Of a stretch of DNA of 61,849 nucleotides, positions 31,104-35,382 are shown in pieces. Position numbers and translations under genes: made by a program. Below the pieces are notes generated by a model, which was not told the origin of the DNA, ran no database searches, and worked only from the letters and a program-made list of their open reading frames with translations. The first letter of the stretch is position 1; every line of letters starts with the position of its first letter. Source of the stretch: Thermoplasmata archaeon (GTDB lineage Archaea; Thermoplasmatota; Thermoplasmata; Methanomassiliicoccales; Methanomethylophilaceae); the NCBI GenBank assembly GCA_015063185.1, contig SUSY01000007.1, forward strand, positions 1 through 61,849. The letters are read 5' to 3'.

Positions 31104-32675
31104 TCAGTTGAGGTCCTCTTTGGTCCAGAGGGTGATACCGGCGGGCATCTTGGTGATGTTACCCTTCTTCACGCCGACAACGGTCTGGATGTTCTTCTCG
31201 GATGCAACCTCCACGATCCTCTGGGAGATGATTCCATCGAAGACGATGGTGGAGACGCTGATCTCCGCATCTGCGCGGAGGGTGTCCACGAGGTTCTTGA
31301 CAGGGAGCTCGAGGACGATGTTGCCATCCTTGTCAAGCACCTTGGCGTTGTGAGTGGATGCGATACCTGCGAGGATGTCGCGGTATGCGGTCTGTTCGGG
31401 GGAGAGGATCTTCTCCACCTTCTCCTTCTTGGCACGAGGCTCCTTCTTGGGCTTCTCGGCATCCTCGGACCTGTCCTTGGGCTTCCTTCCCCTGCGGGGC
31501 TTCTCGACCACGGGCTCCTCTGCGGGCTCCTCGACAATGGGTGCATCGACGGGTTCCTCTACTGCGGGGACATCGTCCTTAGGCTCGGAATCCTCCTTCT
31601 TGCGGAACCTCTCGACCGCCTCGTTGTTGAACCTGTTCTTCCTGGGCTCGCGGCGGGGCTCGTCCTCGTCGGTACCCCTGAGGGAACGCTCGCGGCGCGG
31701 TTCCTCGTCATCGGTTCCTCTCAGAGAACGCTCGCGGCGAGGCCTCTCGCGCCTCTCCTCGGAATCCTCGGAACGGCGCCTCTCGCGGCGGGGGCGCTCC
31801 TCCTCGACGACAGGTGCATCCTCATCGCCCTCCTTGGGAGCGAGTCCGTTCATCTCCATGTACTGGTCACCGGGGATCTTGTTGCGGAGGCACTTGACCA
31901 GCTGCTTCGCACTGAGCTCCTCGACCTCATGCGCACGGGGTGCCCTTGCGACGAAATCGATGTCCGCGACCTGGAAGAGCTCCCTGAGGATGAGCTCTCC
32001 TCCCCTGTCACCGTCGACGAATGCGGTGGAGACCTTCTCCTTGGAGAGTTCCTGGACGGTCTGGGGGATATTGGTTCCCTCAACTGCGATGGCGTTCTTG
32101 ATTCCCGCTTTCAGAAGTGCGATGACATCGGACCTTCCCTCGACGATGATGATGGCCTCGGAGTCCTTTACGTTGGGTCCTGCAGGGCAGCGGTCCTTAC
32201 CATAGGAGGTGATCTCGTCGATCTGGATGCTCTGCCTGAGCGTCTCTGTGATATCGGAACCGGTTCCCTTGGACTGCTTCATGAGGTCCGCGAGGAGCTC
32301 CTTAGCCCTCTCGACGACGAGTTCCCTCTTGGTCACACGGACATCCTCGATACCGAGGACCTTGATTCCCGCCTTGCAGGGACCGACACGGTCGACGGTC
32401 TCCAATGCGGATGCGAGGATGGCGGTCTCGACCTGATCGAGACTGGAGGAGACATAGACGATACCTTCGGACTTTCCACCCTTGGAGGTGACCTCGACCT
32501 CGATACGGCCGATCCTTCCGGACTTCTGGAGGTCCCTGAGGTCCAGATCGTCACCGAGCAGACCCTCGGTCTGTCCGAAGACCGCACCGACGACATCGGG
32601 TTTTTCGACGATACCGTCTGCGGTGAGCTTAGCTTTAACCAGATACTTCATTGCGTTTGGATCGATACTGTTCAT
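31104..32675 (-). CDS. dnaG: Archaeal DnaG-type primase
   Basis: 523 aa. Archaeal DnaG is a Toprim-domain RNA polymerase and a stable subunit of the exosome. The N-terminal TKYLVKAK-like segment and VVGAVFGQTEGLLG are family hallmarks; Toprim motifs are IIIVEGRSD (175-183) and DGDRGGE (221-227). Between Toprim and the conserved C-terminal domain (from about 430) is a 130-residue Arg/Glu/Pro-rich linker with two 14-residue tandem repeats (RRERSLRGTDDEEP and RRERSLRGTDEDEP, 313-340). Family members are usually about 410-450 aa; the excess is this linker. M1 is preferred because DPNAMKYLVKA aligns with family N-termini. Followed by the zinc-ribbon Lon-like ATPase. Confidence 0.94.
   Translation of the reverse strand: MNSIDPNAMKYLVKAKLTADGIVEKPDVVGAVFGQTEGLLGDDLDLRDLQKSGRIGRIEVEVTSKGGKSEGIVYVSSSLDQVETAILASALETVDRVGPCKAGIKVLGIEDVRVTKRELVVERAKELLADLMKQSKGTGSDITETLRQSIQIDEITSYGKDRCPAGPNVKDSEAIIIVEGRSDVIALLKAGIKNAIAVEGTNIPQTVQELSKEKVSTAFVDGDRGGELILRELFQVADIDFVARAPRAHEVEELSAKQLVKCLRNKIPGDQYMEMNGLAPKEGDEDAPVVEEERPRRERRRSEDSEERRERPRRERSLRGTDDEEPRRERSLRGTDEDEPRREPRKNRFNNEAVERFRKKEDSEPKDDVPAVEEPVDAPIVEEPAEEPVVEKPRRGRKPKDRSEDAEKPKKEPRAKKEKVEKILSPEQTAYRDILAGIASTHNAKVLDKDGNIVLELPVKNLVDTLRADAEISVSTIVFDGIISQRIVEVASEKNIQTVVGVKKGNITKMPAGITLWTKEDLN
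31656..31739 (-). repeat. Tandem 42-bp coding repeat inside dnaG
   Basis: Two adjacent 42-bp units encode RRERSLRGTDDEEP and RRERSLRGTDEDEP. They lie in the low-complexity linker between the Toprim and C-terminal domains. Confidence 0.8.
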
Positions 32676-32710
32676 TGTTGATTTCCCCTGATTGGGTTTC
32701 CAAGGGGACC

Positions 32711-32909
32711 TATACTATCTCTGCTCGATCCGTTATTTTCCTATAGCCTCCTGGCATCTAGGACACTCTTCTTTCCCGTGGATTTCCCATCCTTTGCTGC
32801 GGGCTCTTCGGCCGTTCGGCAGTCTTGCGGGTCATAGGACCTGTCGGGCACATCGGGCCCGGCGTGTGTGATTGTGATTGGTGATCAGTGAATCAAGGGA
32901 GATAGTATA
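32711..32909 (-). ncRNA. Candidate structured leader or small RNA upstream of dnaG
   Basis: No complete gene fits the 298-bp gap before dnaG. A TATA box (GTTTATATTTATA, 32937-32949) predicts a minus-strand transcript from about 32918. Its ends can pair: TATACTATCTC (32711-32721) and GAGATAGTATA (32899-32909) are exact complements over 11 bp, 178 nt apart. Inside are local hairpins such as GGTC-CTAT-GACC, GGC-CGAAGA-GCC and CCTA...GCC-AGGA-GGC...TAGG. I see no conserved cores of SRP RNA or RNase P RNA. A competing reading is a broken small zinc-ribbon gene (GWEIHGKEECPRCQE in one frame). Either way the gap is not ordinary spacer. Confidence 0.35.
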
Positions 32910-32973
32910 CTCTTCCCTCGAATCCCATATGTGTTTCTATAAATATAAACATTATCGATGAACGTTTTCGGTG

Positions 32974-35382
32974 TCACATCACCAGGTATTTTATCTCGCC
33001 TTCGAGTTTGAAAGCGGACTCCAAGGAGCGGTCGCATGTGAACATTATGACCTGTTGATCCTTGGCGAACTCCATGATCGCCCTACATGCACCCTGCTTC
33101 CTGTCCCTGTCGAAACGCACCAGGACATCGTCCATGATGAACGGGATACGCTCATCGGTAAGCTCCTTCGCGATGGCCATCTTGATGGACAACAACACCT
33201 GATCGCCCAATCCAGAACTCCATTCGGACAATGTCTTCCTACCCGTGCGGTCTTCGATGGTGAGATCGCTGCTCCTCGGGTCAGCGACGATCTGATAACG
33301 TCCGCCGGTCATCAGCGACAGATATCTGTTGGCTGTCCTGACCACCGTGGGTTGTAACCTGGAATAGAAATGGTCGCAACACTCGTTGATGATAGTGTCC
33401 GCGAGGGAGAGCACGGCCCACCTCTTGGAGGATTCCACATACCTCTCGTTCTGGACCGCACGCGCATACTTGAGATCGTCTATGCTGACATCACCGCGGA
33501 TCGCTGCCATCTCTGCGGTGACATGACCTATCTCCTGATTGATCTCATCGATCCTGTCCTTGAGAGCCTGCTCCTCCATCATGTCATCATCCTCGGAGAC
33601 CGCGATCTCCTTGGACATTATACCGTCAACCTTCACGGATGCGGATTCGACGGATTTGACCAACGCCTCCAACTTGATGTCCAGGGTCTTCAACTTCTCA
33701 CGGTCGTCACGCATCCTGAGCAGAGACTCCTCCCCACCGTACTTCTCCAATATGGCATGGTACTCGACCTCGGTCTGTTGCCTCTTGTCACTGAGACCGT
33801 CGGCTTCGGAGAACGACTCCACGATGTTGCGTGCGACACAGAACTGCGCGTACATCTCGTTGAGGTCACCGAACACGTTGCCCGTATCGATGCCCATGTC
33901 CCTGAGGACGGAGTATACGGAATCGTTTATGGCGGACCTCTCCTCCTCGAACGCGGATATACGTTCCCTGGAGAGATCGCGTCTGCGCATACGGTCGAAG
34001 ACCTTGTCCGCCTCCAACAGCATGTCCGCTGCCCTCTGTTTGGTGATGTTGTCGGGGAAACCCTTCTCCGGGATCCACGTGTTCCAATCTATATCGTCGA
34101 CATGGAAGTATGTGTCTATTATGGACGGTGCCACGTTCACGGCGATACCTGCGACCATGGATACGGATGCAAGGACCGGGGAGTCGATCAGCAGACCTGC
34201 GATGACCCCGGCTGCCGATACCAAGGTGTACGCCACCCTCTTGCCGCGAGTGAGGAGAGTCCTGAACTTGGCGGAGATGACCTTCTTCGACCTAGGGTTG
34301 ATGAGGATCTCATGAACGGATGGGTCGGACTCCATCTTGATTATATCAGACTCCGACAGCCCCAAGGATGCACACGATTCCCTCACGAACGCATCGTCGG
34401 TGGCCTCTGCCTTACGTAGGTCCTCCAACGCATTGGAGAGAATGTCCAAACGACTCTTGAGTCCCCAGACGTTCTCGATATCGTCCCTCATGGCCATGAT
34501 CCTCTCGGCCTGGACGGAATTCATCTGCCCATCCTTCTCCTCGGACTCATCCTCCAGATCGTCCAACAGGTTATCCAAGGTGGTCAGTTTGGACTTCAAC
34601 TGATCGTAACGCATGAGGTCCTCATCGGTGAGTACCTCCGAATACTCCAGAGCGAGACGCTCTGTCCTGAGCTGTTCGATCGTGGCGACATTGTCCTTCA
34701 GGGACTCCAACATGATCTCCTTGTTGCGCATGTAGTTGGCAGTGTCCTGCATATCATGTATGTAGACCAACTGCTCGTTGAGGTTCTCCAATCTGGACAC
34801 CATCTTGTTGTAACCGTCGATGGATTCCTGGAGTTCCGCGATCTCCTGATCGAGACGCCTGACCTCCTTCCTGTACTTACCTATGACCTTGGTGTCTGTC
34901 ACCCTCTCCTTGGTCATCAGGTTGTCCATCTCGGCCCTGATCAGCTTCGAAACCTCGGGAACGTTCTCCCCTCCGGGGACCGTCAGGAACCTCCTCTTGA
35001 GATCGCCCGTGGTGATCACCTTATCGTTGCCCAATTGCTCCAAATCCAATCCGAACAACGAACGATAGGTCTCGGAATCCAGACGGATCTCTGCGGACGG
35101 CAACAGCTTCCCATCCCTCTCGACCACCTTCCTCTGGTCTCTCTGCAGGACCCTGTACCCACCGTCGTCCATGACGACCTCGAGTGTTCCGCTGTCGCTC
35201 TTCTTGGCAATAGGGTACTTGGCATTCTTCCCGGGGAACAGTGTGGACCTCATGAACTCCGCGACGGTGGACTTCCCTGCTTCGTTATCCCCGTAGATCA
35301 GGACCATGTTCTGTCCGGAGAAGTCCTCGTGGAATCCGGTGATGGCACCGAACGATTGGATGTTGACACGACGGATCTTCAT
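32974..35382 (-). CDS. YhaN/Rad50-like AAA ATPase with coiled coils and membrane hairpin
   Basis: 802 aa. ABC-type ATPase split by long coiled coils. N-terminal Walker A GDNEAGKST at 31-39; C-terminal signature WSSGLGDQVLLS and Walker B PFIMDDVLVRFD (about 749), the DNEAGKST/DDVLVRFD pattern being that of the YhaN (AAA_27) branch rather than canonical Rad50. In the middle (about 380-420) are two hydrophobic segments (LVSAAGVIAGLLI and VLASVSMVAGIAVNVA) that look like a membrane hairpin, as in bacterial YhaN. No Rad50 zinc hook CxxC is seen. The ATG overlaps the stop of the YhaO-like gene (ATGA), so the two subunits are coupled. Probable membrane-associated DNA end-processing or sensing complex. 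Confidence 0.85.
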   Translation of the reverse strand: MKIRRVNIQSFGAITGFHEDFSGQNMVLIYGDNEAGKSTVAEFMRSTLFPGKNAKYPIAKKSDSGTLEVVMDDGGYRVLQRDQRKVVERDGKLLPSAEIRLDSETYRSLFGLDLEQLGNDKVITTGDLKRRFLTVPGGENVPEVSKLIRAEMDNLMTKERVTDTKVIGKYRKEVRRLDQEIAELQESIDGYNKMVSRLENLNEQLVYIHDMQDTANYMRNKEIMLESLKDNVATIEQLRTERLALEYSEVLTDEDLMRYDQLKSKLTTLDNLLDDLEDESEEKDGQMNSVQAERIMAMRDDIENVWGLKSRLDILSNALEDLRKAEATDDAFVRESCASLGLSESDIIKMESDPSVHEILINPRSKKVISAKFRTLLTRGKRVAYTLVSAAGVIAGLLIDSPVLASVSMVAGIAVNVAPSIIDTYFHVDDIDWNTWIPEKGFPDNITKQRAADMLLEADKVFDRMRRRDLSRERISAFEEERSAINDSVYSVLRDMGIDTGNVFGDLNEMYAQFCVARNIVESFSEADGLSDKRQQTEVEYHAILEKYGGEESLLRMRDDREKLKTLDIKLEALVKSVESASVKVDGIMSKEIAVSEDDDMMEEQALKDRIDEINQEIGHVTAEMAAIRGDVSIDDLKYARAVQNERYVESSKRWAVLSLADTIINECCDHFYSRLQPTVVRTANRYLSLMTGGRYQIVADPRSSDLTIEDRTGRKTLSEWSSGLGDQVLLSIKMAIAKELTDERIPFIMDDVLVRFDRDRKQGACRAIMEFAKDQQVIMFTCDRSLESAFKLEGEIKYLVM

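Follow-up and report, generated by a model that had tools for sequence, protein, structure and literature searches.

The window studied here, by which we mean the whole 61,849-nt stretch of DNA and not the feature within it, carries on its minus strand the gene order mre11, rad50, a 298-nt gap and dnaG, and the question raised by this locus is what the gap does. It spans positions 32676-32973 and is bounded by rad50, whose end lies at 32974, and by dnaG, whose start lies at 32675, both on the minus strand. The gene that it precedes (dnaG, 31104-32675, minus strand) matches the NCBIfam model NF003108 for DNA primase DnaG with 514.7 bits at a cut-off of 300. Its product has a charged, repeat-bearing insert (PRRERSLRGTDDEE PRRERSLRGTDEDE) between the conserved halves, and the length of this insert differs among relatives. 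Whether DnaG serves as a primase or as a subunit of the exosome is disputed, so that what a leader of its gene senses would show which of these roles the cell regulates. To our knowledge, conserved structured leaders are known for few archaeal mRNAs. On balance, we propose that the dnaG mRNA begins with a structured untranslated leader, encoded by the gap, that controls dnaG in cis. As far as sequence can tell, such a leader probably sets the amount of DnaG that is made.

Known RNA families and coding potential

Searching Rfam 15 at the gathering score returned no family for the window or for ten relatives, and at a permissive threshold the window gave chance-level matches only. Archaeal SRP RNA and RNase P RNA resemble the dnaG leader in being ~200-300 nt long with both ends joined by a helix. 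They differ from it in that the leader has no Rfam match and that genuine copies of both RNAs are found elsewhere in the same genome. Archaeal SRP RNA (RF01857) has no match in the gap, the genome's own copy lying at C51:63426-63735 (144.8 bits), and archaeal RNase P RNA (RF00373) likewise has none there and is matched on contigs C52 and C14. This agrees with an earlier note on this DNA, which had seen neither RNA in the gap. The two RNase P RNA matches of the assembly (C52:30947-31242 and C14:3360-3653) agree at only 246 of 305 aligned columns. This may reflect a duplicated RNase P RNA gene or an origin of the 5.9-kb contig C14 in a different species.

The earlier note also considered the region to be possibly coding. 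This idea was abandoned, as the longest open stretches average 64.8 aa compared with 59.1 aa in shuffled sequences, which is near the shuffle level, and the alignment contains many frame-breaking indels and no conserved frame.

Promoter and position of the leader

Within the gap, the TATA-like sequence TTTATATTTATA (32949-32938, minus strand) is followed by ~250 nt of leader. This TATA box had been noticed before, and it recurs among relatives. A scan for DnaG yielded 58 loci from which 48 leaders were extracted, and 47 of these have a TATA-like element no more than 55 nt before the 5' arm (median of 27 nt from TATA start to arm), with promoters called by the TATA consensus only and the start site deduced. 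A second TATA box at -62 to -22, between the helix described below and dnaG, was found in none of the 48, so that leader and gene show the promoter pattern by which a cis-acting leader is recognized. From the short distance between the TATA box and the 5' arm, the transcript should begin at about this arm. Together with the lack of a visible promoter between the helix and dnaG, this makes the element most likely the 5' leader of the dnaG mRNA, and we consider it very probable that we are dealing with a dnaG leader rather than with a separate RNA. At 17 of 46 loci rad50 was not found upstream, and the leader is still with dnaG there.

A long-range helix predicted to close the leader

Two 11-nt segments of the gap, TATACTATCTC (32711-32721) and GAGATAGTATA (32899-32909), are exact complements. 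The earlier note was correct about their complementarity and slightly off about their spacing, which is 177 nt and not 178 nt. Eleven nucleotides is the longest perfect inverted repeat in the gap with arms at least 60 nt apart, compared with a mean of 7.0 in dinucleotide shuffles, and none of 200 shuffles had a repeat of at least 11. A repeat search lengthens the arms to 29 nt, with 72% of positions complementary (32693-32721 with 32899-32927), and the minimum free energy fold adds an outer and an inner helix to the 11-nt stem. All parts lie on the minus strand. The outer 5' arm UUCGAGGG (32915-32922) pairs with the outer 3' arm CCCUUGGA (32699-32706) in the fold, the 5' arm being assigned also from the a x a' swap test given below. 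The 11-nt 5' arm UAUACUAUCUC (32899-32909) pairs with the 11-nt 3' arm GAGAUAGUAUA (32711-32721), as judged for both arms from sequence, fold and shuffles and for the 5' arm also from the whole-strand swap test. The inner 5' arm CUUGAUUC (32890-32897) pairs with the inner 3' arm GGAUCGAG (32724-32731) in the fold, with the b x b' swap test as further evidence for the 5' arm.

Inside the closing helix, a single-stranded UCAC cluster, UUCACUGAUCACCAAUCACAAUCAC (32868-32891, minus strand), identified by YCAY counts and conservation in the alignment, is followed on its 3' side by hairpin P3 (32845-32861, ends approximate, minus strand), which is predicted by the fold and has an equivalent in related groups with changes on both sides of pairs. 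A few nucleotides separate the end of the closed helix from the ribosome-binding site, around which short hairpins are recurrent among relatives. In the window, a possible hairpin UCCCC ... AGGGGA (32684-32708, minus strand), read from the sequence, would join the region of the outer 3' arm to a purine-rich stretch before the start codon, and might thereby compete with the closing helix.

The fold of the whole gap is only slightly more stable than those of shuffles (z -1.67), with 10 of 200 shuffles equally or more stable. As a single sequence thus barely exceeds its shuffles, the case for a structured RNA rests on comparison with relatives.

Distribution of the leader

Conservation of the gap among relatives, on which the earlier note had made its reading depend, is found at several depths. 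The gap is matched in 6 of 6 genomes of the window's genus, and a sequence profile of the leader matches 79 of 147 genomes of the Methanomassiliicoccales, in single copy in each. In 77 of the 79, the match is directly followed by dnaG on the same contig and strand, and the other 2 matches lie at contig ends. Counting these two, all 79 matches are upstream of the same gene, a constancy of position that is another mark of a cis-acting leader. No copy away from dnaG was found in the 79 genomes with profile matches. The 5' profile has a weak second match in the window's own genome (C23:19790-19833, 11 bits, E 0.42), which is probably due to chance.

Among the 147 genomes of the order, profile matches are confined to family f1. 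When the dnaG upstream regions of families f2 to f6 were inspected, they showed the same layout with different sequences; the helix is formed, for example, by GGAAAAACAG with CUGUUUUUCC in f3, by CGAAACGACU with AGUCGUUUUCG in f5 and by GGAAAAGCGGCU with AGUCGUUUUUCU in f6. In all 48 extracted leaders the elements follow in the order TATA box, 5' arm, second arm, UCAC cluster, hairpin, variable interior, 3' arms, ribosome-binding site and dnaG. The arrangement is also present outside the order, within the same class or phylum, in about a dozen families (f8, f18, f22, f23, f27, f28, f29, f30, f36, f39 and f42). No leader was found in 9 of 9 sampled genomes of f26, in which dnaG is intact, nor in the samples of f24, f25 and f31. 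One of the loci (L060) lies on a contig that is filed under an uncultured Clostridia genome and encodes an archaeal DnaG; it is probably a misbinned archaeal contig.

We found no description of an archaeal dnaG leader in the open-access literature. To judge from that search, the element is an undescribed family of structured mRNA leader that is tied to one gene and old within the phylum.

Compensatory changes in the closing helix

RNAalifold found no consensus pairs on a MAFFT alignment of all 48 leaders and none on the 5' domain, because MAFFT misaligns the variable arms. We therefore used alignment-free swap tests, in which the pairing energy of the native 5' and 3' strands is compared with that of strands exchanged between species, phylogeny being ignored. 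With whole strands of 19 leaders below 65% identity, native pairs averaged -26.5 kcal/mol and swapped pairs -22.0 kcal/mol (z -5.2), and none of 20,000 permutations reached the native value, kinship being ignored. The inner arms (b x b') gave z -3.2 on the 19 divergent leaders and z -6.2 on all 48. The outer arms (a x a') gave z -4.2 on the 48 leaders but z -1.0 on the 19 divergent ones.

Across the phylum, RNAduplex z-scores over long segments had a median of -1.3 in the order and of 0.0 in f26. We judged this measure too blunt and replaced it by a test of contiguous helices, in which the native helix exceeded all 20 between-family swaps in 24 of 75 genomes, where 3.6 would be expected with kinship ignored. 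Two better-aligned groups showed pair changes on both sides at 7 of 16 and 9 of 34 pairs, located in the outer helix, P3 and interior hairpins, and RNAalifold gave weak covariation terms on two sub-alignments. These comparisons indicate that the secondary structure of the leader is kept by compensatory changes. Both the long stem that the earlier note had proposed to close the leader into one domain and the covariation expected of it are thus upheld.

A competing hairpin at the 5' arm

The 5' arm can alternatively form a local hairpin, GAGGGA ... UCCCUU (32890-32922, minus strand), that is mutually exclusive with the closing helix. The segment folds at -15.2 kcal/mol (window z -2.9), and the local hairpin of the 5' arm comes to -12.9 kcal/mol in the window. 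Within the order, the hairpin has a mean z of -1.4 in 42 sequences, and its sequence varies between families while its pairing is kept. Inside f1, independent a x b and b' x a' swap tests were not significant (local hairpin z -1.2). As both cores are nearly constant there, a swap test in f1 cannot reveal the hairpin, and we retested it between families. In that test, 3 of 20,000 permutations reached the native mean, with anchors that were picked by hand after the helices had been seen. The modelled folds and these swaps support two mutually exclusive structures within the order, in line with the GGGA...TCCC hairpin described in the earlier note.

Leaders outside the order mostly lack the local hairpin (mean z -0.37), which, like the absence of a leader from f26 despite an intact dnaG, counts against our preferred model of a two-state cis-acting leader. 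The two-state design is thus not universal. The closing helix is the old core of the leader, and the switch-like hairpin a feature of the order.

The UCAC cluster and a proposed mechanism

The interior is the least conserved part of the leader, with only the arms and the UCAC cluster as common elements. The cluster forms the most conserved columns in both leader alignments, and YCAY occurs on average 3.67 times per 36 nt, compared with 0.64 in shuffled leaders, and at least twice in each of the 48. Many families have an A-rich 5' arm.

In the mechanism that we propose, transcription would start a short way before the 5' arm. In a closed state, pairing of this arm with the strand ~190 nt downstream would make the leader a single domain, with the ribosome-binding site just beyond its end. 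In an open state, the 5' arm would fold on itself and free the 3' arm, which could then cover the ribosome-binding site or, in relatives where this arm is U-rich, be offered to the termination factor aCPSF1. The open state would therefore lower dnaG expression. Whether the leader switches between these two states we judge to be evenly balanced. In structure predictions for 38 leaders, forming the closing helix makes the ribosome-binding site more accessible in 14 and less accessible in 2 and leaves it as it was in the others, a modest effect. As for aCPSF1, its two KH domains bind U-tracts (PMC8716108), and a run of at least four U is found in the 3' arm region of 35 of the 48 relatives but not in the window's leader or its genus. 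Termination by aCPSF1 is consequently not the mechanism here and is part of the story at most; universal termination at the U-run was dropped as a general mechanism.

The most likely trigger would be binding of DnaG or its exosome to the single-stranded A-rich or UCAC-rich part of the leader, resulting in negative feedback. The N-terminal domain of archaeal DnaG binds RNA and prefers poly(A) (PMC4227792), and this preference together with the A-rich 5' arm of many families makes such feedback the favoured trigger, although we advance feedback by DnaG or the exosome only tentatively. A bolder and rather improbable version is that the leader is an ancient, phylum-wide RNA device that senses the exosome, with DnaG and its exosome partners reading the A-rich and UCAC-rich single strands and a leader fragment perhaps persisting as a stable RNA on the complex. 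If this were true, the mRNA of a single exosome subunit would tell the cell how much capacity for RNA decay it has.

Parallels to this putative autoregulation exist in bacteria. The rne and pnp 5' regions of E. coli are autoregulatory mRNA leaders of RNA-decay enzymes, and like the dnaG leader they are long structured 5' regions before an RNA-processing gene whose product could bind them. The dnaG leader differs in being archaeal, in its unrelated sequence and in a long-range closing helix that begins with the first bases of the transcript. The trp leader, a protein-responsive bacterial attenuator that is bound by TRAP, and other bacterial attenuators resemble it in having hairpins that exclude one another and short repeats clustered in an unpaired stretch. 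In contrast to these, the repeats of the dnaG leader are UCAC or UCAU, transcription is archaeal, no terminator hairpin was seen and the U-run occurs in part of the relatives.

Other candidates for the regulator and for the element

The role of regulator might fall to another protein than DnaG, for instance one with a KH domain (aCPSF1, Rrp4 or an rRNA maturation factor) that would read the UCAC/UCAU cluster. No sequence feature of the leader is better conserved than the YCAY repeats. KH domains read about four single-stranded nucleotides, and Era recognizes GAUCA at the 16S rRNA 3' end (PMC10582724). Two KH domains are present in aCPSF1, although their targets are U-tracts (PMC8716108), and no specificity of an archaeal KH domain for UCAC was found in the literature searched. 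We regard such a regulator as possible rather than probable.

It is unlikely that the element is a separate small RNA gene acting in trans, perhaps complexed with DnaG or the exosome, whose 3' end would lie at the U-rich arm with partial read-through into dnaG. Paired transcript ends are a trait of many stable RNAs, and with the 5' arm at the predicted start site the closing helix would pair both ends of this RNA. The U-run in the 3' arm of most relatives and the combination of low sequence conservation with high architectural conservation would also suit it. However, without a promoter between the helix and its start codon dnaG needs the same transcript, the element is never found apart from dnaG in the genomes matched by the profile, and the window's genus lacks the U-run at which this RNA would end.

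A riboswitch, in which a small molecule would bind the interior of the leader and set the switch without a protein, appears very unlikely. It would account for the mutually exclusive pairings and for the conserved unpaired stretches, but the interior differs greatly among groups of one order and shrinks in f23. As a ligand pocket is expected to be the best conserved part of a riboswitch, this variability argues against one; no conserved ligand-binding core was seen and, at the sensitivity of the profile, no copies lie before metabolic genes. Scarcely credible is a DNA element (an operator or a promoter-proximal protein site) with an accidental helix and no role as RNA. The UCAC repeats could also be read as a DNA repeat near the promoter, but compensatory pairing between arms 150-200 nt apart and the order TATA box, arm, interior, arm and start codon kept across families speak against it.

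A minimal form of the leader and an insert domain

The cis-acting leader that we favour is practical to test, owing to its single-copy tie to one gene and to its short form in f23 (about 120-145 nt), and the arms, the UCAC cluster and the U-rich 3' arm are direct targets for mutation. In f23 the helix, formed for example by GGGAAAAAUGGUCAUCC and GGAUGACUAUUUUUCCC, starts 116-143 nt upstream of dnaG. Six loci of this family (L158, L163, L165, L167, L170 and L173) carry a minimal leader with a helix of 15-20 bp around a short interior with UCAC/UCAU repeats, and this minimal leader is the best candidate for structure probing. Three other loci (L047, L051 and L055) share a near-identical interior block upstream of dnaG, CATCATTGCCGACAATCCGATGAGGACACTGCGGCAGAAAAACAGTCGATA, that was not seen in other groups and is, to judge from its sequence, a separately conserved insert domain of the leader.
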